Shown here piece by piece: positions 40,912 to 51,701 of a DNA stretch of 64,000 nt; position 1 is the first letter of the stretch; each line of letters begins with the position of its first letter. Source of the DNA: Sorangium cellulosum (GTDB lineage Bacteria > Myxococcota_A > Polyangia > Polyangiales > Polyangiaceae); NCBI RefSeq assembly GCF_002950945.1, contig NZ_CP012673.1, positions 9,004,501-9,068,500 of the forward strand. Direction: 5' to 3'. Both the position numbers and the translations under genes were made by a program. The notes under the pieces are model-generated. The model was given only the letters and a program-made list of their open reading frames with translations, did not search any database and had not been told where the DNA came from.

Positions 40912-43900
40912 TCAGCTGCCGTCGTCAGCCCCGGGGCGGGGGGTTTCGTGTTGGTTGTCCACCGCCGGGGGGCGCAACGGGAGCTCCACGACGAACGTCG
41001 CTCCGCCGTTCGGCTTGCTCTCCACCCGGACGGTGCCGCCGTGCGAGGAGACGATCCAGCGTACCAGATAGAGGCCGAGGCCGAGACCGCCGAAATTCCG
41101 CGCCGACACCGCGCGCTCGAAGCGATCGAAGATCCTGGCCTGATCCCCCTCTGCTATCCCGATCCCGTGATCTCGGACGATCACGAGCGCCGAGTTCGCC
41201 TGCCTGCGCACGCCCACGTGAATGGGCCGATGCATGCCGTACTTCATCGCGTTCGACAGGAGGTTGAACAGGACCTGCTCCAGGCGGGACCTATCCCAGT
41301 GTCCCACCACTGGCTCGTCCATCTCGAGCTCTGTCCGGCAGCCAGCCGCCGCGAGCTGCGGGGCCATCCGCTCGACGATCTCGCGGGCCAGGGAGGAGAG
41401 ATCGACTGGCTCGCATGCGAGTGTCAGCCGTCCGGCGTGCAACCGCGAGACATCCAGCAGCTCGTCCACCAGATGCCCGAGCCGCGCGATCTGCCGATTG
41501 ACGACCTGGAACATGGTCTCGATCCGTGCCGGGGTGAGGTTCGCGGACCGGTCGCGGCGCAAGTGCCGCTCGACCATCTGAATCTGCATTTGCAGCGACG
41601 TGAGCGGGGTCTTGAGCTCATGGGAGGCGATCATGAGGAATTCGTCCCGCCGCCCGATCGCCTCCTGGGCGATCGCGTACAGCCGGGCGTTGTCGAGCGC
41701 GAGCGCTGCACGGCGGCCCAGCTCCTCGGCCAGCGCCAGGTCGGCGGGCCCATAACGACGCTGCTGCGCGGTCGCCAGCAGGAACATGACCCCGAGGCAC
41801 CGATCGCGCGCGCGGAGTGGAACGCGGAGGTAGGCGTGGACGCTGAGCTGCTGCAGGAGGGGCATGGCGCGGGCGTCCCCGATCTCGGGCCCGGTCGGCG
41901 TCGCCACCGCGGGGGAGGCCAGCGCCTCACGCAGCGCCTCGAGCTCTTCGCGGGGCGCTCCTGAGGCGGCGGTGCCGAAGACCGCGTCGCCGTCGGGGAG
42001 GACGCTGACGACGCACCGGTCGGAGAGCTCGGGCACCGCGAGATCGGCGACGCTCTCGAGCGTGGCGTCGTAGCCCAGCGCCATCAGCTTGCGGCTCGCA
42101 TCGGCCAGGAAGCGCTGGGCCCGCTCGACCTGCTTGCGCTCGGTGATGTCGGTGGATATGCCGCAGAGCGCGCGCGGCGCGGCGCCCTCGCCGAGAGGAA
42201 ACTTGACCGACAGGAAGGTGCGCGTCCCATCGGCGAGCGGCAGCACCTCCTCCCATTCCATCGGCGTCCCCGCCTCGAGCACCTTCCGGTCGTGGTCACG
42301 AAGGGTCTCCGCGATCTGACCGGGGAAGATCTCCGCGTCGGTCCTTCCGAGGAGCCGCTCGCTCGGGAGGCGCAACAGGTCGCACACGTGCCGATTGGCG
42401 AGCAGGAAGCGACCTTCGCGGTCCTTGAGGTAGATGGCCGCCGCCGAGTTGTCGACGATGGCCTGGAGGATCTCTTGACTGTCCTTGAGCGCCTGCTCCG
42501 CCCGCCGCCGTTCGGTGTTCTCCTCCTCGAGATCGGAATAGAGCATGGCATTCTCCAGCGAGATTGCCGTCTGCGAGGCGAGCAGCTCGAGCACGTTGAG
42601 CCGCGCGGGGGTGAACACCCCGGTGACCAGGTTGTTCTCCAGGTAGAGGATGCCGAGCAGTCGGGTCTGGCGCGCGATGGGGAGGCATAACAAAGATCTC
42701 GGCCGCCTGCGCGTGAAGTGCTCGTCCTCCAGGAACGGGTGCGGGGCGGCGGCGTCGTCGAGCAGCAAGCGCTCGCGGCTCCGGCGGACATAGTTGAGGA
42801 TCGACTGCGGGAGCGTCGCCGTCGACTCTTCGCAGAGGTCGAGCAAGCGCACCGTCCCTCCCCTCGCCTCGATCGCGGCCGCGGTCGACAGACGTTCGCC
42901 CCGGACGAGGACCACATACCCACGATCGGCGCCCGCGTGCTCGACCACGATGCGCAGCAACGTCTCGAGCAGGCGCGGCAGCTTCAGCTCCCCGGAGATG
43001 CTCTGCGAGGCCTTGACCACCGACAACACGTCGAACTGCTCGGCCCGCAGCGCGAAGGTGACGGTGGGGGCGATCGGCTTGCGCTCCACGAGGTGGGGGT
43101 AGCGCTGGTCGAGCTGCTCCACCTTGGCATGGGCGCCCCAGCGGAAGTAGCCGGCGCGGGCCTTCTGCAGGAAGGCGTCGGCGGAGATGGCGAGGCCGCG
43201 CGCGCGGTGAAACCCCGCAGCGAGCTCGCAGGCGAGGGCCTCGTGCTGGACGAAGCCGTGCTCCCGCGCCGATGAGATGGCCTGCTCGTAGAGACGGCTC
43301 GCCTCGGATTCGCGCCCCAGGAGCCGGGCGATCTCGGCGCGCACCAGGGCGTGTTTGTGGAGGAAGTTCTCGGGACAGTTGTCCGCCCACACGCCGAGCT
43401 GCCTCTCGCCCGCCAGAAGACCGTCGGGGAGCTCCCGCGACGGCGACGGCGACGCATCGCAGACGGCGGCGAGCGCGAGCGCGCGATAGAAGACGAACTC
43501 GACGAGCAATGGGCCCATTCCGAACCTCCAGGCTTGCTCGCTGCTCGCGATGGTCGTCGCCGCGACCGCCTCCCTGGGGGAGCCGAGCACGAGCAGCGCC
43601 TGTGCTTTGAATATATAGTAGAAGCAGTGAGCCCCCTCCAGGTCATTCGGATCCAGCCGCTCCTCGAAGGCCTGCTGATCCAGCACCGATCCATCCAGCA
43701 TCGAGAAGTGGACTGGTCTCCCTCGCAGCGTCTGGATCAGGCAATAGGCGCCGAGGAGGATGTCATGAGAGAACCCGTGACGCGCCCTGCGCACGAAGCG
43801 AAGCCGATCTTCGACCTCACGAAGGACCTCCTCCAGAGGCTCACCGCAGGCGAGCGGAAACAACGGAGCGAACTGGCAATTACTGCATGCCAGATGCAGG

Positions 43901-46900
43901 TCGCCTGACTCGATCGCGGCATTGTACCCGATGAGCGAATAGAAAGGAGCCTCTCGGTAGTGCCGCCGCCAGAAGGCAAGGTGGTTTCCGAATATGGTGA
44001 ACACGAAGGATTTCGTGACGAGGAGGCTGCTCCCGTCCGCCAGGCGGCAGGCGAGCTCGCCGAGGCGGTAAGCCTCCTTGTATTTCCAGTACCTACGGGC
44101 GACCTCCACGGCGAAGCCGCTGTACGCGTGGGCCGAGCTCTCGGCGTTGCCGTGACGCAGGCTGAGCTCGATCCTGCGCACGGCGACGAGATACATCAGA
44201 TTCGGGTCTACAAAATAGGCGGCGAGGGCCACGCCTCGCAAGACGCCCATCGCGACCTTGATCTCCGGGTGCGTCATGGGGGGCAGATGGATCAGCTCCT
44301 CGATGGCCCGGTCCCCCAGCATTTGCCACACGCGCTCGGTCTCTTCTTCGACCTGGGCGTCGGTGGGGTGGATCGGCAATTCGATCCCGAACGCGCGGAG
44401 GCACCGAAGCCCGAGCTCCAGCGCGCGGGCGCTTTGCCTGCAGGTCACATGGAAGCCGACCGCGAGCTCGACAACCGCGGCCCTCTCGAGCTCGGTCCGC
44501 GCTCGAGACAAGAGCTCTTCGAAGAGCGGCTCAGCGTCTTCGAAGCTGCCGGTGACGTACGCAGCGTACGCTCGCTCGAAGGTCAGGTTGTAGGTCAGCT
44601 CGTACTGCGACTCCCAGCGGTCCGGCGCGAGCAACGCCGCGCCCGCGGCGAAGAGAGCCGCCGCGCCGTGGAACGCCGCCGCAGCCTTGGCCTTCCTGCC
44701 GGCGCGGAGGTTCAACGCGGCGATCTCGTTCCTCTCCGCCTGGGAGCGGACGAGCGCCGCGCCGCGGTTGAGGTGACCTATGACGTCGAAGATCATCTCC
44801 TCACGCTCTTCGGCGCGCTGCCGCTTCAGGAGCAGCCAGCCAATCCCAAGGTGCACCTCGGCGAGCCGTTCCGCCGGAATCAACGCGTAGGCGGCTTGCT
44901 GCACCCGGTCGTGGAGGAACCGATAGGTCCCGCCCTGGCTAACGATCAGCCCCTCCTGAACGGCCTCTTCGAGCGCCTCGCGGAGCTCTGCCGCCGGACG
45001 TTTTGCCACCACCGCGAGGGTGTCGAGGTCCAGGCGGCTGCCCAGACACGCGGCGAGCTTGACGGCGTCCAGCGCCGGGACCGAGAGCCGCTTCAGCTTC
45101 CCCGTCATCAGCTCGACGACGTTATCGGTGAAGCCCTTGTCGCGGATCGCGGCGATGTCCCACCGCCACGCGCCGGCCTCCGCATCGAGGACGATGAGCC
45201 GCTCTTGATGCAGCGCGCTCAAGAACTGGAGCACGAAGAAAGGGTTGCCACCGGTCTTCTCGTAGACCAGGTGCGCGAGGGGCTCGACCTGATCCGCGCT
45301 CGCGCGGACCGCCTCGGCCACGAGCGCTCCAACGTCAGCCGCCGAGATCGGCGCGAGGGCGATGTTGGCGACGACCGCGCCCTGCTTCCTCGCGTCGGCC
45401 AGCGTGCGCTGCAGCGGGTGCGCGGGGCCGACCTCGTTGTCGCGATAGGCGCCGAGCAGGAGCAGGTACGAAGCCTCGGTATACGTCACGAGCTGCTCCA
45501 CGAGCTTCAAGCTGGCCGTGTCGGCCCATTGCAGATCGTCGAGGAAGAGCACCACCGGGTGCTCTTTCTCCGCAGTCGCCGCGACGAAGCGCTGGACCGC
45601 CGCGTGTAGCCGGGTCTGGGCCTCGGTGGCCGGGAGCTCGGGCATGGGCTCTTGCGGGCCCACGAGCTGCTCGATCTCGGGCAGCACGTCGGCGAACAGC
45701 CGGCCGTTCGACCCAAGGGCCTCCCGCAGACGCTGCCGGAAGCGCTCGACTCGGTCCTCGCTCGCAGCCAGGATCTCCTGCAAGAGGCCCCGGAACGCCT
45801 GGAGAAAAGGGAGGTAAGGTACGCCTCTATTGTATTGATCGCATTTGCCGGAGAGGAAAAAGCCCCGCTCCCGCACCACCGTGCTGTGCAGCTCGGCCAC
45901 GAGCGACGACTTGCCGATGCCCGAGTAACCCGACACGAGCACGAGCTCCGGCCGGCCCTGCGCTACCACCCGCTCGAAAGCGGCGCGCAGCGCCTCGACT
46001 TCGCGCTCGCGTCCATAGAGCCGCTGTGGGACCTGGAAGCGATCGGAGAGGTCACGCTGCCCGAGCGCAAAGGCTTCGATGTTGCCGCTCGCCCGCCACC
46101 GGGCGAAGCACGCGTCCAGGTCGTACCGCAGGCCGAGCGCGCTCTGATAACGCTCCTCGGGGGCCTTGGCCAGCAGCTTGAGCACGACCGCGGACAAGAG
46201 CGGCGGAACGGAGCGTACTATCGCGTGGGGCGGGACCGGCGTTTGAGCGATATGGCAGTGCACCCACTCCAGGGGATCGCGCGCGTCGAAGGGCAGGCGG
46301 CCCGTCAGCATCTGGTAGAACGTGACCCCGAGGGAGTACAGGTCGGTCCGCTCGTCGATCCAACGGTTCATCCGGCCCGTCTGCTCCGGCGCCATATAGG
46401 CCAGCGTCCCCTCGATGAGACCAGCGTGGGTGAGGTCTTGGGACTCGCGAGGTGCCCGGGAGGCGATCCCGAGGTCGGTGATCTTGACCTCGTCGGTGTC
46501 AGCGTTGTAGAGCAAGTTTTCAGGCTTGATGTCCTTGTGGAGGATGTGATGTCGATGCAGCTCAGCGAGCGCTGCAGCAATGCGGAGGGCGAGGGGGAAG
46601 AAGCGATCGAGCGGCATCGGCTCGCCGAGGGGATGATCGAGGGAGCGGCCCCCGAAGTCCTCCAGGATCAGCGCCGGCTGGCCGTGGAACGCGTCGATCG
46701 CGTAGGGCTTGACGACGGCCGAAGCGTCGATCGCGCCGGCGATCTCGTACTCGTGGTACAGCCGCCCGAGAGCGCGGGGATCGGTGTGGTCGCGCCGTAT
46801 AACCTTGAGCACGACCGTCCGGTCGTCTTCTTTGCGACGTGCCCGGAAGACGAGGGTATCTGTACCTTCATGGAGAATCTCGAGCACGACATAACGCGAA

Positions 46901-46911
46901 TCGCTGGTCAT
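40912..46911 (-). CDS. giant hybrid Ser/Thr kinase - ATPase - histidine kinase
   Basis: 1999 residues. Domains in order: Ser/Thr kinase (1-280; Lys36, HKD 125-127 in place of HRD, Asn132, DLG 146-148 in place of DFG); AAA_16-type ATPase (300-600; Walker A GYSGIGKS 328-335, Walker B VVLFLDDLQW 453-462); TPR-like helices (about 620-1280); GAF (about 1308-1455); PAS (1477-1597); GAF (1610-1740); HisKA with phospho-acceptor His1764 (SHELKTPLTSL); HATPase (NLLSNAMKYG, DHGIGI, GGLGLGLYLV). This is the HstK architecture known from cyanobacteria and myxobacteria. It senses signals through GAF/PAS parts and may relay to an unlinked response regulator, as no receiver domain or regulator gene is adjacent. 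Confidence 0.93.
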   Translation of the reverse strand: MTSDSRYVVLEILHEGTDTLVFRARRKEDDRTVVLKVIRRDHTDPRALGRLYHEYEIAGAIDASAVVKPYAIDAFHGQPALILEDFGGRSLDHPLGEPMPLDRFFPLALRIAAALAELHRHHILHKDIKPENLLYNADTDEVKITDLGIASRAPRESQDLTHAGLIEGTLAYMAPEQTGRMNRWIDERTDLYSLGVTFYQMLTGRLPFDARDPLEWVHCHIAQTPVPPHAIVRSVPPLLSAVVLKLLAKAPEERYQSALGLRYDLDACFARWRASGNIEAFALGQRDLSDRFQVPQRLYGREREVEALRAAFERVVAQGRPELVLVSGYSGIGKSSLVAELHSTVVRERGFFLSGKCDQYNRGVPYLPFLQAFRGLLQEILAASEDRVERFRQRLREALGSNGRLFADVLPEIEQLVGPQEPMPELPATEAQTRLHAAVQRFVAATAEKEHPVVLFLDDLQWADTASLKLVEQLVTYTEASYLLLLGAYRDNEVGPAHPLQRTLADARKQGAVVANIALAPISAADVGALVAEAVRASADQVEPLAHLVYEKTGGNPFFVLQFLSALHQERLIVLDAEAGAWRWDIAAIRDKGFTDNVVELMTGKLKRLSVPALDAVKLAACLGSRLDLDTLAVVAKRPAAELREALEEAVQEGLIVSQGGTYRFLHDRVQQAAYALIPAERLAEVHLGIGWLLLKRQRAEEREEMIFDVIGHLNRGAALVRSQAERNEIAALNLRAGRKAKAAAAFHGAAALFAAGAALLAPDRWESQYELTYNLTFERAYAAYVTGSFEDAEPLFEELLSRARTELERAAVVELAVGFHVTCRQSARALELGLRCLRAFGIELPIHPTDAQVEEETERVWQMLGDRAIEELIHLPPMTHPEIKVAMGVLRGVALAAYFVDPNLMYLVAVRRIELSLRHGNAESSAHAYSGFAVEVARRYWKYKEAYRLGELACRLADGSSLLVTKSFVFTIFGNHLAFWRRHYREAPFYSLIGYNAAIESGDLHLACSNCQFAPLFPLACGEPLEEVLREVEDRLRFVRRARHGFSHDILLGAYCLIQTLRGRPVHFSMLDGSVLDQQAFEERLDPNDLEGAHCFYYIFKAQALLVLGSPREAVAATTIASSEQAWRFGMGPLLVEFVFYRALALAAVCDASPSPSRELPDGLLAGERQLGVWADNCPENFLHKHALVRAEIARLLGRESEASRLYEQAISSAREHGFVQHEALACELAAGFHRARGLAISADAFLQKARAGYFRWGAHAKVEQLDQRYPHLVERKPIAPTVTFALRAEQFDVLSVVKASQSISGELKLPRLLETLLRIVVEHAGADRGYVVLVRGERLSTAAAIEARGGTVRLLDLCEESTATLPQSILNYVRRSRERLLLDDAAAPHPFLEDEHFTRRRPRSLLCLPIARQTRLLGILYLENNLVTGVFTPARLNVLELLASQTAISLENAMLYSDLEEENTERRRAEQALKDSQEILQAIVDNSAAAIYLKDREGRFLLANRHVCDLLRLPSERLLGRTDAEIFPGQIAETLRDHDRKVLEAGTPMEWEEVLPLADGTRTFLSVKFPLGEGAAPRALCGISTDITERKQVERAQRFLADASRKLMALGYDATLESVADLAVPELSDRCVVSVLPDGDAVFGTAASGAPREELEALREALASPAVATPTGPEIGDARAMPLLQQLSVHAYLRVPLRARDRCLGVMFLLATAQQRRYGPADLALAEELGRRAALALDNARLYAIAQEAIGRRDEFLMIASHELKTPLTSLQMQIQMVERHLRRDRSANLTPARIETMFQVVNRQIARLGHLVDELLDVSRLHAGRLTLACEPVDLSSLAREIVERMAPQLAAAGCRTELEMDEPVVGHWDRSRLEQVLFNLLSNAMKYGMHRPIHVGVRRQANSALVIVRDHGIGIAEGDQARIFDRFERAVSARNFGGLGLGLYLVRWIVSSHGGTVRVESKPNGGATFVVELPLRPPAVDNQHETPRPGADDGS

Positions 46912-47243: not shown

Positions 47244-48086
47244 CTATAGCCGCCCCTGGTGCCACAGGGAGAGCAGATCCATCGACATCGCGACGGCGAC
47301 GTGGATCGCGCACCCGCCCCAGATGGAGTCGCTCTTCAGGCTCACCGTGCCGAGGACGAACCCGGCGATCACCGAGCCGAGGGCCTCCGGCAGGGGCTTG
47401 CCGAAATGGATCATCGCGTAAGGCACCATCATGGCGAAGATCGAGGCATAACCGAGCACGCGGCGGAGCCCGTGGAGGAAGAAGCCGCGGTAGAAGAACT
47501 CGAGCGCGACGAACTGCGCGGCGTAGAGGGCCTCCCACGACCAGAACCACGGCCAGAGGGGCTCGCCGGGCGCGAGCTTGTAATACGGGTACTTCGCCTG
47601 GAACGCCGGCGCGAGGGACGCGGCGTAGAGGACGGGCGCGAGGACGGCGAAGAAGAAGGCGTAGACGGGCAGGTGCCGGGCCGTGCCGCGGACGCGGAGG
47701 CCGAAGCTCCGGAGCGGCTCCCGCAGCACGAGGCGCGCGACGAGCAGCGTCGGGACGAGATACCCGAGGAGGCGGCCGGCCGCCCAGACGATCCGCTGGT
47801 GGAAGCGGCGGTCCGGCGAGGTGTTCAGCGCGCCGTGGAGCCACGCCGCGGCGTCGTCGAGGCCCACGGCGCGCAGGCCCTGGACCATCCAGCGCGTGTC
47901 GTTCTCGTTGCCGGCGAAGCGGACGAAAGTGAGCACGCCGATCACCGTGAGGAACACGCTCACCATCCGGCGCGTGACCTCCCCCGCGGGCGTGGTGGTC
48001 CGGTACAGCATGGCCTCGGCGTCGATCCGGTCGCGTAGATCGATGACGTACTCCTGCCAGATCCCACGAAAAAAGCGTCCGATCAC
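47244..48086 (-). CDS. CPBP-family membrane protein (degenerate motifs)
   Basis: 280 residues with about seven hydrophobic segments. The CPBP (Rce1-like, ABI) region gives VALEFFYRGFFLHGL and PYAMIHFGKPLPE. In the EExxxR motif the first Glu is Leu (L-EFFYR), and the last motif reads GCAIHVAVAMS, without the usual Asn after HxxxN. Functional family members are intramembrane glutamic proteases that need the first Glu. So this may be an inactive member with a scaffold role, or it uses a different residue. It stands alone. The start at 48086 has no alternative of note. Confidence 0.8.
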   Translation of the reverse strand: MIGRFFRGIWQEYVIDLRDRIDAEAMLYRTTTPAGEVTRRMVSVFLTVIGVLTFVRFAGNENDTRWMVQGLRAVGLDDAAAWLHGALNTSPDRRFHQRIVWAAGRLLGYLVPTLLVARLVLREPLRSFGLRVRGTARHLPVYAFFFAVLAPVLYAASLAPAFQAKYPYYKLAPGEPLWPWFWSWEALYAAQFVALEFFYRGFFLHGLRRVLGYASIFAMMVPYAMIHFGKPLPEALGSVIAGFVLGTVSLKSDSIWGGCAIHVAVAMSMDLLSLWHQGRL

Positions 48087-48181
48087 GCGCAGTGCTTACC
48101 AGAACCCGCGCGCCCGGCACAGCCCGAAAGGCCGCGCCCCGGCGCGCGGCGCAGGCCCGGCGCGCCCCGCTCCGCGGAGCG

Positions 48182-49456
48182 TCAGGAATCGTCGTCGCTG
48201 TCGTCGTCCTCGCCCTCGTCGAGGTCGGCGGAGGTCGTGCCCAGGATCGTGAGGAGACCGATGACTGCCTGCGCGTCGCCCATCATCTCGGCCACGATCT
48301 CGGCCGCAGGCTTGATGTTCCGGACCGCGAGGACACTCTCCGAGCCAGCGGGCATATCCATCTCCTCCAGGTCGGCCACCGTGTCCGGCGTGGGGATGGT
48401 CGCGCTGAACTTGGGCATCGTGTAAGGCACGTCGAGGACCCCGGGGAACATCACGGTCGTGCCGATGGTGGCCGGCGGAGGCGGCGGGCTCGGGATCCTC
48501 GACTCCCTCCCGGCCCACTGCCTGACGACGCGGTTGCGAAGGACACGCTGGCGCGCGTTCGGCCACTCCGGGCCGAAGAACGTCTGCAGCGCCGTGGCGT
48601 CCCTCCCCGCCGCGACGAGGCGCGCCTTGTAGTCGGGATGGGCATACGCCTCCGTGGAGGCGACGAACCGCGTGCCGGCGACGACCCCATCGGCGCCGTA
48701 CCCCAGCGCCCGGACGACGCTGGCCCCGTCGGCGATGCCGCCCGCCGCGAGGAGCAGCGCCGGCCTGACGCGCTTCTTGATGTCCTTGACGAGCGCCCTG
48801 GTGTCGACCGTGGCCCTGGCGTGGCCGCCGGCTTGAACCCCCTGCGCGATGATCCCGTCCACGCCGAGGGCCACCGCCTGGCTCGCGGCCGCCACCGAGC
48901 CCACCTGGACCCAGACCTTCGCGCCCGCCGCGTGGAGCGCGTCGACCCACGCGGCGTCCGGGGGATTCCAGTGGAACACCACGAGCCGCACGCCCTCGGC
49001 GACACAGACGTCGATATGCTCCTGCGTGGTGAACGGCCCGGAGGTCGCGTTCTCGACGATGAAGTCCACGCCGAAGAGGTTCGAGGTGAGCGCCTTGATC
49101 GCCTGGATCCTCGCCTGCACCACCGAGGCCGGCTCGACCGCCGCGCCCAGGAGGCCGATGCCGCCGGCGTTCGATACCGCCGCGACGAGCGGAGGCAGGC
49201 TGACGAACGCCATGCCGGCGCTGACGAGCGGGTACTGGACGCCGTAATCCGCCGTGAGCTTGGTCGTGAGCGAGAGAGAGAGGGCGCTCGACTCGCCCAG
49301 CAGCGTCTCATCGCCCTCGCCAGGCTCGCGCGCCCCCTCGCCCGGCGCGCAGCCGGCTCCGAGCGCAAGGGCGAGACCACCCCGCCCGAGGACGTCCAGA
49401 AACGTACGCCGATCGAGCCCCCGCACCACGTCCTTCGTCTTCTTCGTCGTGCTCAT
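48182..49456 (-). CDS. exported nitronate monooxygenase-like protein
   Basis: 424 residues. The N-terminus has a twin-arginine motif (LDRRTFLDVLGRGG) and a hydrophobic stretch ending GAGC (Cys36), so it is probably a Tat substrate, maybe lipidated although the lipobox is not canonical. The rest is a TIM-barrel flavoenzyme of the nitronate monooxygenase/2-nitropropane dioxygenase family: YPLVSAGMAFVSLPPLVAAV, AGGIGLLGA, FHWNPPDAAW, AQGVQAGGHAR, LLAAGGIADGASV and GADGVVAGTRFVAS. Normal members are cytosolic; export is unusual. The C-terminal 20 residues are nearly all Asp/Glu/Ser. It is divergent from the putative diiron protein, sharing a 160-base promoter region. Confidence 0.85.
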   Translation of the reverse strand: MSTTKKTKDVVRGLDRRTFLDVLGRGGLALALGAGCAPGEGAREPGEGDETLLGESSALSLSLTTKLTADYGVQYPLVSAGMAFVSLPPLVAAVSNAGGIGLLGAAVEPASVVQARIQAIKALTSNLFGVDFIVENATSGPFTTQEHIDVCVAEGVRLVVFHWNPPDAAWVDALHAAGAKVWVQVGSVAAASQAVALGVDGIIAQGVQAGGHARATVDTRALVKDIKKRVRPALLLAAGGIADGASVVRALGYGADGVVAGTRFVASTEAYAHPDYKARLVAAGRDATALQTFFGPEWPNARQRVLRNRVVRQWAGRESRIPSPPPPPATIGTTVMFPGVLDVPYTMPKFSATIPTPDTVADLEEMDMPAGSESVLAVRNIKPAAEIVAEMMGDAQAVIGLLTILGTTSADLDEGEDDDSDDDS

Positions 49457-49616
49457 GTTGTACTCCCGCGCGACCTATCGGTCGGCCATCAACTGGCAAC
49501 AGATTTCACCCTCGACCGTCCGTCGATGAACCGGACGCACACCCTGGCGGCACGTATTTTGCTGAATTTCCTGATGATCGCCGGCCACCCCATTACCTCT
49601 TGGAGATGACCAGGCC

Positions 49617-50411
49617 ATGAAAATCGTCCAGCAACACATCGCGCGACATCAGACGCGCTTTCACGACCATCCATTCTTTGCCCGCCTCGACAAGGACCCG
49701 CCCCTCGATCAGCTCGCGCCGTTCCCGTTTTGCTTTACGTTCTTCGCGCTCGCGTTCCAGGACATCTTGCGCACCTGCGACGAGCGCGTGACACATCCGG
49801 ACTTCAAGCGCATGGTGCACCGCCACCGTCTGGAGGATGCCGGACACGACCGATGGTTCCTCGCCGATCTGGCGACGCTCGGCATTGAGCCGCCCACGGG
49901 GACGCAGATGTTCGCCCCGGCCCACGACGCCGCTCGCCGCGCAGGGTTCGCCCTGATGTCCGAGGCGCTCGGCGCCCGCCACGACGCGTGTGTGCTCACG
50001 CTGCTCCTCGCGATCGAGTCGACTGGACACGTGTTCTTCGAGCGTATCGCGCGGTACATCGCGCGCATCGGCGAGACGCGCCGCCTGCGCTACTTCTCCC
50101 AGTCGCACCTCGACGTCGAGATGGCGCACGACGTGTTCGAGAAGGACACCGACGCTCAGATCGAATCCCTGGCCCTGGCTCCGGAGGTGCGGGAAGAGGC
50201 GCTGCAGCTCGTCGACCGCTGCTACCGCGAGCTCACCGCCATGTACGACGGCATCGAGGCGCAGATCGCCGCCCATGCGTCGGGCGCGGCGTCGGTGCGA
50301 TCCAGGCCTCGCCCGGGCATCGGAGCGGGGCTCCACGCGTCGGCCGCGCCTTCCCTGCGACCGTTCGCGCGGCGCGCTCCTGCCCGGGATGGCGCGCGCC
50401 GGACGCGGTGA
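49617..50411 (+). CDS. heme-oxygenase-like fold protein, putative diiron
   Basis: 264 residues, all-helical by pattern, with regularly placed acidic and His residues: Glu73/His77 (HRLEDAGHDRWF), Glu134/His138 (IESTGHVFFE) and His164, Glu168, His171 (SHLDVEMAHD). The spacing recalls heme-oxygenase-like diiron oxidases and the TenA/PqqC group. Family membership is inferred from these ligands and length, not from full similarity. The last 50 residues are Arg/Ala/Pro-rich and probably disordered. It is divergent from the exported nitronate monooxygenase-like gene, so a shared pathway on nitrogen-containing substrates is possible but unproven. Confidence 0.6.
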   Translation: MKIVQQHIARHQTRFHDHPFFARLDKDPPLDQLAPFPFCFTFFALAFQDILRTCDERVTHPDFKRMVHRHRLEDAGHDRWFLADLATLGIEPPTGTQMFAPAHDAARRAGFALMSEALGARHDACVLTLLLAIESTGHVFFERIARYIARIGETRRLRYFSQSHLDVEMAHDVFEKDTDAQIESLALAPEVREEALQLVDRCYRELTAMYDGIEAQIAAHASGAASVRSRPRPGIGAGLHASAAPSLRPFARRAPARDGARRTR

Positions 50412-50750
50412 CGTCGAGACGTCTGGCGACAACCGCCAGACGTTCTGGCCACGGACAACAGACGCCCAAAGATGTCTCGAAATGCCTCAGTCCCCCGCCG
50501 CCTGACTGGGGCGAAATGGCCCGCTCCGGAGACCACGGGACGTCCGGCCACGGACCGCCAGGCGTCCGGCCACGGACATCCGGCAGCGCTCGACGGAGAG
50601 GAGGCCGAGGGCGCGGATGGGGCGGTCCTGCTCACCCGGAGCACACCTGCGCGACCTGAGCTCATGTGACGGTGACGTGCCGGCGACCGCCGGCGGAAGA
50701 CGCGACGCCGCGGGCCGGCGCCGGGAAGCGCGCAGCCCGCGGCCCGCGTG
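50412..50750. other. intergenic region with CGTCCGGCCACGGAC repeats
   Basis: 339 bases. Related units occur near 50421-50465 (acgtctggcgacaaccgcca, then acgttctggccacggacaac) and 50540-50585 (CGTCCGGCCACGGAC twice, 22 bases apart). No gene is recognised; the plus-strand frame is Arg/Ser-rich. The repeat core resembles the 33877-34030 array. Confidence 0.5.
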
Positions 50751-51701
50751 TCACTGCGGCGAGGTGGGGTTGACGATGATCTCGACGCGCCGGTTGTTCG
50801 CGCGGCCTTCCGGGCTCTTGTTGTCCGCCACGGGGCGGTCCGGGCCGTGGCCGACGGTCGCGATCTTGTCCGCGGGCAGCCCCACGCTGATGAGGTGCAT
50901 CTTCACCGAGTCCGCCCGCGCGAGCGAGAGCTTGCGGTTCGCGTCGGCGGAGCCGGTCGAGTCGGTGTGCCCCTCGATCCGCAGGGGCGGCGACCCCTGG
51001 TCCTTCAGCGTGGTCGCGATCTGGTTGAGCTTCTCCTTCGCGATCGGCAGGAGCTCGGACTTGCCCGAGGCGAAGAGCACCGCGCCGGAGAGCGTGATGA
51101 CCACGCCGCGCTTCTCCTCCTTGACCGCCGCGATCTCCTTCAGGCTCGCGAGCGCCGCGTTCGCGACGCGCTCGGCCTCGCGCCGCGCGTCCTCGGCCTC
51201 CTTGCGGGCCTTCTCGGCCTCGGTGCGCGCGCTCTCGGCCGTGAGCCGCGCGCTCTCGGCCTGGGCGCGCGCCTGGCGCTCCCGCTCGATCTGCTGCTGC
51301 CCGGTCTGCAGCGCGTCCTTCGCGCTCGCGAGCTGCTGCTGCGAGAGCTCCTTGAAGTTGTCCTCGGCCGCCGCCTTGTCGCGCTGCGCCTGCTCGATGG
51401 CCGCGGCCGCCTCGGCCTCGCGCGCCTTGCGCTCGGCGACGTAGGCGAGATCCCGCGTCTGCTGGGCCTCGGGGTCCTCGATGAACGCCCCCTCGGCGCG
51501 GGAGAGCGCCTGCCGCGCGTTGTCGAGCTGGGCGGGCGCGAGGGTCGACGCGGGGCCCTGGCTCGCGCGCGAGTAGCTCGACCGCGCGTCGACGAGCTCC
51601 TTCGGGGGGAGCGCCGCGCTGCACCCGGACGCGGCCAGGAGCGCGGCGGCGAGCCCGAACGACCGGCCTGGGAACGACAGCATCATCAATCTGGAAGGCA
51701 T
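50751..51701 (-). CDS. OmpA-family lipoprotein
   Basis: 316 residues from the ATG at 51701, which follows GAGGTGAGGG. The lipobox (LLAASGC) gives lipidated Cys27. A long coiled-coil, Ala/Glu/Arg-rich (about 60-190, AESARLTAESARTEAEKARK), leads to a C-terminal OmpA domain (LFASGKSELLPIAKEKLNQIA, EGHTDSTGSADANRKLSLARA, VGHGPDRPVADN, RRVEIIV). It probably tethers the outer membrane to peptidoglycan. The next gene, a DUF4398 lipoprotein, lies 17 bases upstream in the same operon, and the pair is a frequent combination. No binding partner is seen here. Confidence 0.87.
   Translation of the reverse strand: MPSRLMMLSFPGRSFGLAAALLAASGCSAALPPKELVDARSSYSRASQGPASTLAPAQLDNARQALSRAEGAFIEDPEAQQTRDLAYVAERKAREAEAAAAIEQAQRDKAAAEDNFKELSQQQLASAKDALQTGQQQIERERQARAQAESARLTAESARTEAEKARKEAEDARREAERVANAALASLKEIAAVKEEKRGVVITLSGAVLFASGKSELLPIAKEKLNQIATTLKDQGSPPLRIEGHTDSTGSADANRKLSLARADSVKMHLISVGLPADKIATVGHGPDRPVADNKSPEGRANNRRVEIIVNPTSPQ

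Follow-up and report, generated by a model that had tools for sequence, protein, structure and literature searches.

The heme-oxygenase-like diiron (HDO) proteins include N-oxygenases, namely SznF, RohS and HrmI, and a 2026 review lists two members, AetD and SktA, that rearrange the tryptophan side chain (PMC13108848). AetD (PDB 8TWW and 8JI2) is the nitrile synthase that acts in aetokthonotoxin biosynthesis, and it also accepts unmodified L-tryptophan (PMC10654658). SktA converts 5-bromotryptophan to 5-bromoskatole (skatole plus cyanide), and the two enzymes differ at positions 139, 142 and 214 (PMC13108848). Iron enzymes of the AetD type, which turn tryptophan into a nitrile, are rare, and the genomic context of the family considered here hints at unexplored tryptophan chemistry.

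The window analysed here is a 64,000-nucleotide stretch of Sorangium cellulosum DNA (G000:C1:9004501-9068500, from a genome of 14.56 Mb) that carries a divergent gene pair, one gene encoding an AetD-type HDO protein and the other a flavoprotein of the nitronate monooxygenase (NMO) family (Table 1). Both open reading frames of the first-pass annotation are confirmed, as is the gap it described between them, with exactly 160 bp separating the start codons. Third-position GC is 0.92 in the NMO gene and 0.86 in the HDO gene, and orthologs in a second genome of the genus (G165) share 72% and 65% identity, respectively. Comparison with these orthologs gives a dN of 0.186 and a dS of 0.476 for NMO (dN/dS about 0.39) and a dN of 0.221 and a dS of 0.586 for HDO (dN/dS about 0.38). 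Together, the codon composition, the orthologs and the dN/dS ratios near 0.4 establish both as real genes under purifying selection. No sigma-70-like promoter was found in the 160 bp between them, and no conserved promoter or operator was seen there, the region being without visible conservation in G165. Elsewhere in the window, positions 40912-46911 encode a 1999-residue Ser/Thr kinase-AAA-GAF-PAS-histidine kinase that is absent from the matching stretches of G164, G165, G166 and G167.

Table 1. Features of the NMO-HDO locus, in window coordinates.
Feature	Position	Strand	Basis
FMN TIM-barrel protein of the NMO family (PF03060), 424 aa, carrying a twin-arginine signal at its N-terminus	48182..49456	-	PF03060, structure comparison, G165 ortholog (72%)
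NMO/FabK-like domain, residues 66-314; AGGH His212 aligned with the matching His in FabK/NMO structures	48515..49261	-	Pfam, structure comparison
Twin-arginine signal, residues 1-36: DRRTFLD motif with R16-R17, hydrophobic stretch, Cys36 in lipobox-like GAGC	49349..49456	-	sequence; RR and Cys kept in G165
Intergenic region, 160 bp, between divergent start codons	49457..49616		no consensus promoter; G165 conservation not visible
AetD-type HDO protein, 264 aa; domain residues 1-225, low-complexity tail after	49617..50411	+	sequence, AetD similarity, tree
Core helix 1 ligands D74, H77 (AetD D76, H79)	49836..49847	+	alignment to AetD
Core helix 2 ligand E134 (AetD E140)	50016..50018	+	alignment to AetD
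Y159 (counterpart of AetD Tyr167, which binds the substrate carboxylate); core helix 3 ligands H164, E168, H171 (AetD H172, E176, H179)	50091..50129	+	alignment to AetD
NMO-HDO unit, approximate extent; missing from same site in G164 and G167	48135..50750		locus comparison
CPBP/Rce1-like membrane protease, syntenic flank outside the unit	47244..48086	-	synteny
OmpA-family/DUF4398 gene, syntenic flank outside the unit	50751..51680	-	synteny

Judged by its sequence, the 264-residue protein is a member of the HDO family and belongs with AetD. Its Pfam match is weak (PF14518, Haem_oxygenas_2, 6.8e-7), and AetD is its only significant relative of solved structure (full length, phmmer 2e-15). A profile built from 15 family members matches AetD at 7e-63, as against insignificant values for BesC (0.14) and PolF (0.63). 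Homology predicts a seven-helix heme-oxygenase-like fold; a single-sequence AlphaFold model is all helical, with a pLDDT of only 42, and is unusable. The six iron ligands of AetD, a 3His/3carboxylate set taken from PMC11611611 and PMC10654658, all have counterparts in the alignment (Table 1). These six positions are nearly invariant across the family, as are F43 and F47 (AetD F44 and F48) and the tyrosine at Y159. The AetD similarity and the six conserved ligands thus support the first-pass identification of a heme-oxygenase-like diiron protein, and five of the seven His/Glu ligands that it proposed (H77, E134, H164, E168 and H171) stand. The other two do not: the AetD alignment makes the overlooked D74, rather than Glu73, the first carboxylate, and His138 falls at a non-ligand position occupied by Leu in AetD.

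The substrate pocket is less conserved. Relative to AetD, the window protein carries L206 for S214, T136 for A142, I133 for M139 and D78 for W80, and of positions 139, 142 and 214 it agrees with SktA at 142 only. The indole-pocket positions 139, 142, 146, 214 and 221 vary within the family, and three of them (139, 142 and 221) differ even between the window protein and its G165 ortholog, so that the product, nitrile or skatole, cannot be assigned from these residues.

The 424-residue flavoprotein matches PF03060 at 2e-40 (139.6 bits against a cut-off of 28). Its best NCBIfam match is the FabK equivalog, at 156 bits far below the 453-bit cut-off, and no particular activity can therefore be claimed for it, including the nitronate oxidation proposed in the first reading of the locus; its nearest relatives are FabK/NMO-like barrels. 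The Tat-type signal noted in that same reading is borne out by a twin-arginine motif and hydrophobic stretch conserved in G165 (LDRRTFLD...LALGAGC in the window and LDRRTFLD...LAIGPGC in G165), so that the RR motif and the Cys are kept. The motif was judged by eye, since our regular-expression scan, which excludes motifs followed by acidic residues, missed it. The protein would thus be exported from the cytoplasm, and Cys36 suggests a possible Tat lipoprotein, with a lipobox-like GAGC in the window and a poor lipobox, GPGC, in G165. The NMO family as such occurs in 74 of 184 genomes of the order (1e-20). The 72% ortholog is found in G165 only, where it again adjoins the HDO ortholog; the next homologs (G146-148, 37-39% identity) have neither a Tat signal nor an adjoining HDO, and the fetched loci show no NMO-family gene near an HDO elsewhere, bar a weak match 1.1 kb away in L095.

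Within the genus, NMO and HDO lie side by side, bordered by the same pair of flanking genes, in two of five genomes (G000 and G165), and both are missing from that site in the other three (G164, G166 and G167). In G164 and G167 the CPBP protease and OmpA genes are direct neighbours, separated by about 60-130 bp; G166 lacks the CPBP gene as well. The pair is thus genetically linked, being jointly present or absent at one site in all five genomes, and its two genes co-occur in two genomes only. Over five flanking genes, neither pairwise identities nor split counts place G000 with G165 (17 sites unite G164 with G165, 17 unite G000 with G166 and four unite G000 with G165), and gain or loss of the unit has therefore probably happened repeatedly. 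A single deletion can remove adjacent genes, so part of this pattern could stem simply from adjacency; the pattern supports joint function and does not prove it.

We further note that relatives of the HDO protein often occur in a tryptophan context. Of 184 genomes in the order, 29 have a match at 1e-5, and the wider class adds two more. HMM mapping of the neighbourhoods fetched across order and class places a tryptophan dimethylallyltransferase (DMATS) at 16 HDO loci. Four of these are fusions in which DMATS and HDO share one open frame (L037:2208-4040, L041:3254-5287, L036:12128-15505 and L102:7558-9597), and the L036 frame holds a flavin (FAD) oxidase too. By Pfam, DMATS exceeds its cut-off in all three of L036, L037 and L041; the HDO domain does so in L041 and falls short in the other two. 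The L102 fusion and the stronger HDO scores come from custom HMMs made for this analysis. The L045 locus includes a DMATS frame in which a second, weak HDO-like match was seen. At the sole halogenase-linked locus (L039:9742-13406), a tryptophan halogenase lies two genes on from the HDO (PF04820, 4.8e-161). In the tree, the window protein and its ortholog fall inside a 14-row clade (support 100/100) in which eight rows are DMATS-linked and one adjoins a tryptophan halogenase. Tat-type FAD oxidases adjoin the HDO at ten loci (eight flagged by motif scan, L042 and L043 by eye), and an exported flavoenzyme is thus a recurring HDO partner.

The DMATS loci and the halogenase locus indicate that the substrate class of the family is probably tryptophan; for the window's own copy this is an extrapolation. 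DMATS was detected in neither G000 nor G165, in a search that recovered it in all three DMATS-bearing control genomes, and neither DMATS nor a halogenase was found near the window, the halogenase-family matches elsewhere in G000 being weak; the substrate of this copy may accordingly have changed. The literature searched yielded nothing joining dimethylallyltryptophan with heme-oxygenase-like enzymes, and the DMATS-HDO fusions were not found there.

Other HDO arrangements were also seen. Two flavin monooxygenase-like genes directly follow an AetD-type HDO at L047:9443-13503, and these might be AetF-like single-component halogenases. All six genomes of the genus encode a second AetD-like HDO (L050, L049, L091, L093, L094 and L104), which is closer to AetD (about 35%) than the window protein is and lies near a ParA-like gene in G000 and G166. 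Tandem double HDO domains occupy single open frames at L051:7227-10958 and L103:7754-9370, and a family of 160-190-residue proteins without a Pfam match (L042:10140-10649 and relatives) recurs beside HDO and DMATS genes. The only homolog from the plasmid search is an AetD-type HDO that stands alone on Streptomyces clavuligerus plasmid pCLA1 (L106:8001-8699), where no gene is listed. A Variovorax match from the related-locus search of genome contigs lies under a long opposite-strand frame and is probably spurious.

The DMATS-linked loci may also bear on the indiacens, indoles that, judging from a 4-iodoindole synthesis, have a prenyl-derived C4 group and no C3 side chain (PMC4660955), and that are produced by Sandaracinus (PMC9306752). 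G181 carries DMATS, a Tat FAD oxidase, HDO and an MFS transporter. Loci L089:5607-12035 and L090:9857-16208 hold the same four together with a small protein. We infer both the Sandaracinus assignment and the link to the compounds, and regard these as candidate indiacen clusters; the literature searched names no biosynthetic genes for indiacens. A broader proposal, which we put forward as speculative and rather doubtful, is that the myxobacterial AetD-type family, including the prenyltransferase-HDO(-flavin oxidase) fusions, acts on prenylated tryptophan and strips its side chain to give prenyl-indoles such as indiacens, the window cassette being a derived, prenyltransferase-free form with the exported NMO-family protein in the flavin-oxidase role. 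A myxobacterial branch both linked with tryptophan prenyltransferases and joined to them in fusions would bring in a new class of substrate and assay-ready fusion enzymes, and would offer a candidate route to indiacens.

For the window itself, our best reading, to which we give a probability of roughly 0.45, is a cytoplasmic tryptophan cleavage of the AetD/SktA type by the HDO, coupled to an exported flavin oxidase whose substrate is the resulting product or something related to it. The HDO would bind two Fe(II) through its six ligands, and L-tryptophan or a close derivative would coordinate Fe1 via its amino-acid head while Y159 contacts the carboxylate. Rearrangement or cleavage of the side chain by O2 would follow, yielding either an indole nitrile, as with AetD, or skatole plus cyanide, as with SktA. 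The divergently encoded FMN TIM barrel would be exported through the Tat route and, outside the cytoplasm, would most likely oxidise what the HDO makes or a related molecule, the role that we also suggest for Tat-exported FAD oxidases adjoining many HDO relatives. The two genes would form one cassette, inherited or lost jointly. What the analysis shows is the family as judged by sequence, the conserved ligands, the presence and absence of the pair and the gene context of the relatives; export, substrate, product, the second step and the coupling of the two proteins are inferred.

Three other explanations have to be weighed. It is quite possible, although we put it below even odds, that the HDO is an AetD-type tryptophan enzyme and the NMO-like protein an unrelated neighbour sharing its insertion site. 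The occurrence of the pair in just two genomes, the abundance of the NMO family in the order and its near absence beside HDO genes elsewhere, the nearest homologs without signal or HDO neighbour, and the unconserved intergenic region are all consistent with this; purifying selection on both genes argues against it, as does their lying side by side in two genomes that the flanks do not group while three others have neither. That the HDO has moved from tryptophan to a different amino acid, in genomes with no prenyltransferase partner, is in our view unlikely. The absence of DMATS hits in G000 and G165 and the differences from AetD at indole-pocket positions 80, 146, 214 and 221 would fit such a shift, but Y159, which would hold the amino-acid head, and the aromatic F43 and F47 are retained, and AetD itself needs no modified tryptophan (PMC10654658).

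The two-enzyme route on a nitro or amino compound suggested by the first-pass annotation, in which N-oxygenation of an amine by the HDO would yield a nitro compound, with the exported NMO then oxidising the nitronate, is unsupported and very improbable. Some HDOs are indeed N-oxygenases (PMC13108848) and PF03060 is named after nitronate monooxygenase; the HDO sequence, however, groups with AetD only, with its ligands and Tyr167 kept, and its relatives lie in a context of tryptophan prenylation and halogenation. Moreover, the extra Glu ligand that SznF and RohS carry on auxiliary helix 2 is absent, its place being taken by Phe47 (AetD F48), so that the protein is not of the four-carboxylate (3His/4carboxylate) N-oxygenase type.

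The window pair is a minimal two-gene case open to testing. The HDO resembles AetD in overall sequence (27.6% by tblastn), in the six iron ligands and in the residues equivalent to Y167, F44 and F48; it differs in the changed indole pocket, in having no aet-type genes nearby and in its pairing with an apparently exported flavoprotein. The AetD ligand set is also predicted for SktA (PMC13108848), with which the window protein shares Thr at position 142, whereas T139 and F214 of SktA, compared here by description, correspond to I133 and L206. The flavoprotein shares PF03060 and the AGGH histidine with the NMO/FabK TIM barrels (PA1024, 2GJL; FabK, 2Z6I; and 3BO9), from which it is set apart by its twin-arginine signal, its acidic C-terminal tail and its low score against the FabK model. 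The DMATS-linked HDOs of L036-L038, L041-L043, L087 and L088 share the clade and ligands of the window protein; these come with DMATS and mostly an FAD oxidase as well, whereas the window has neither and carries an NMO-family protein instead.
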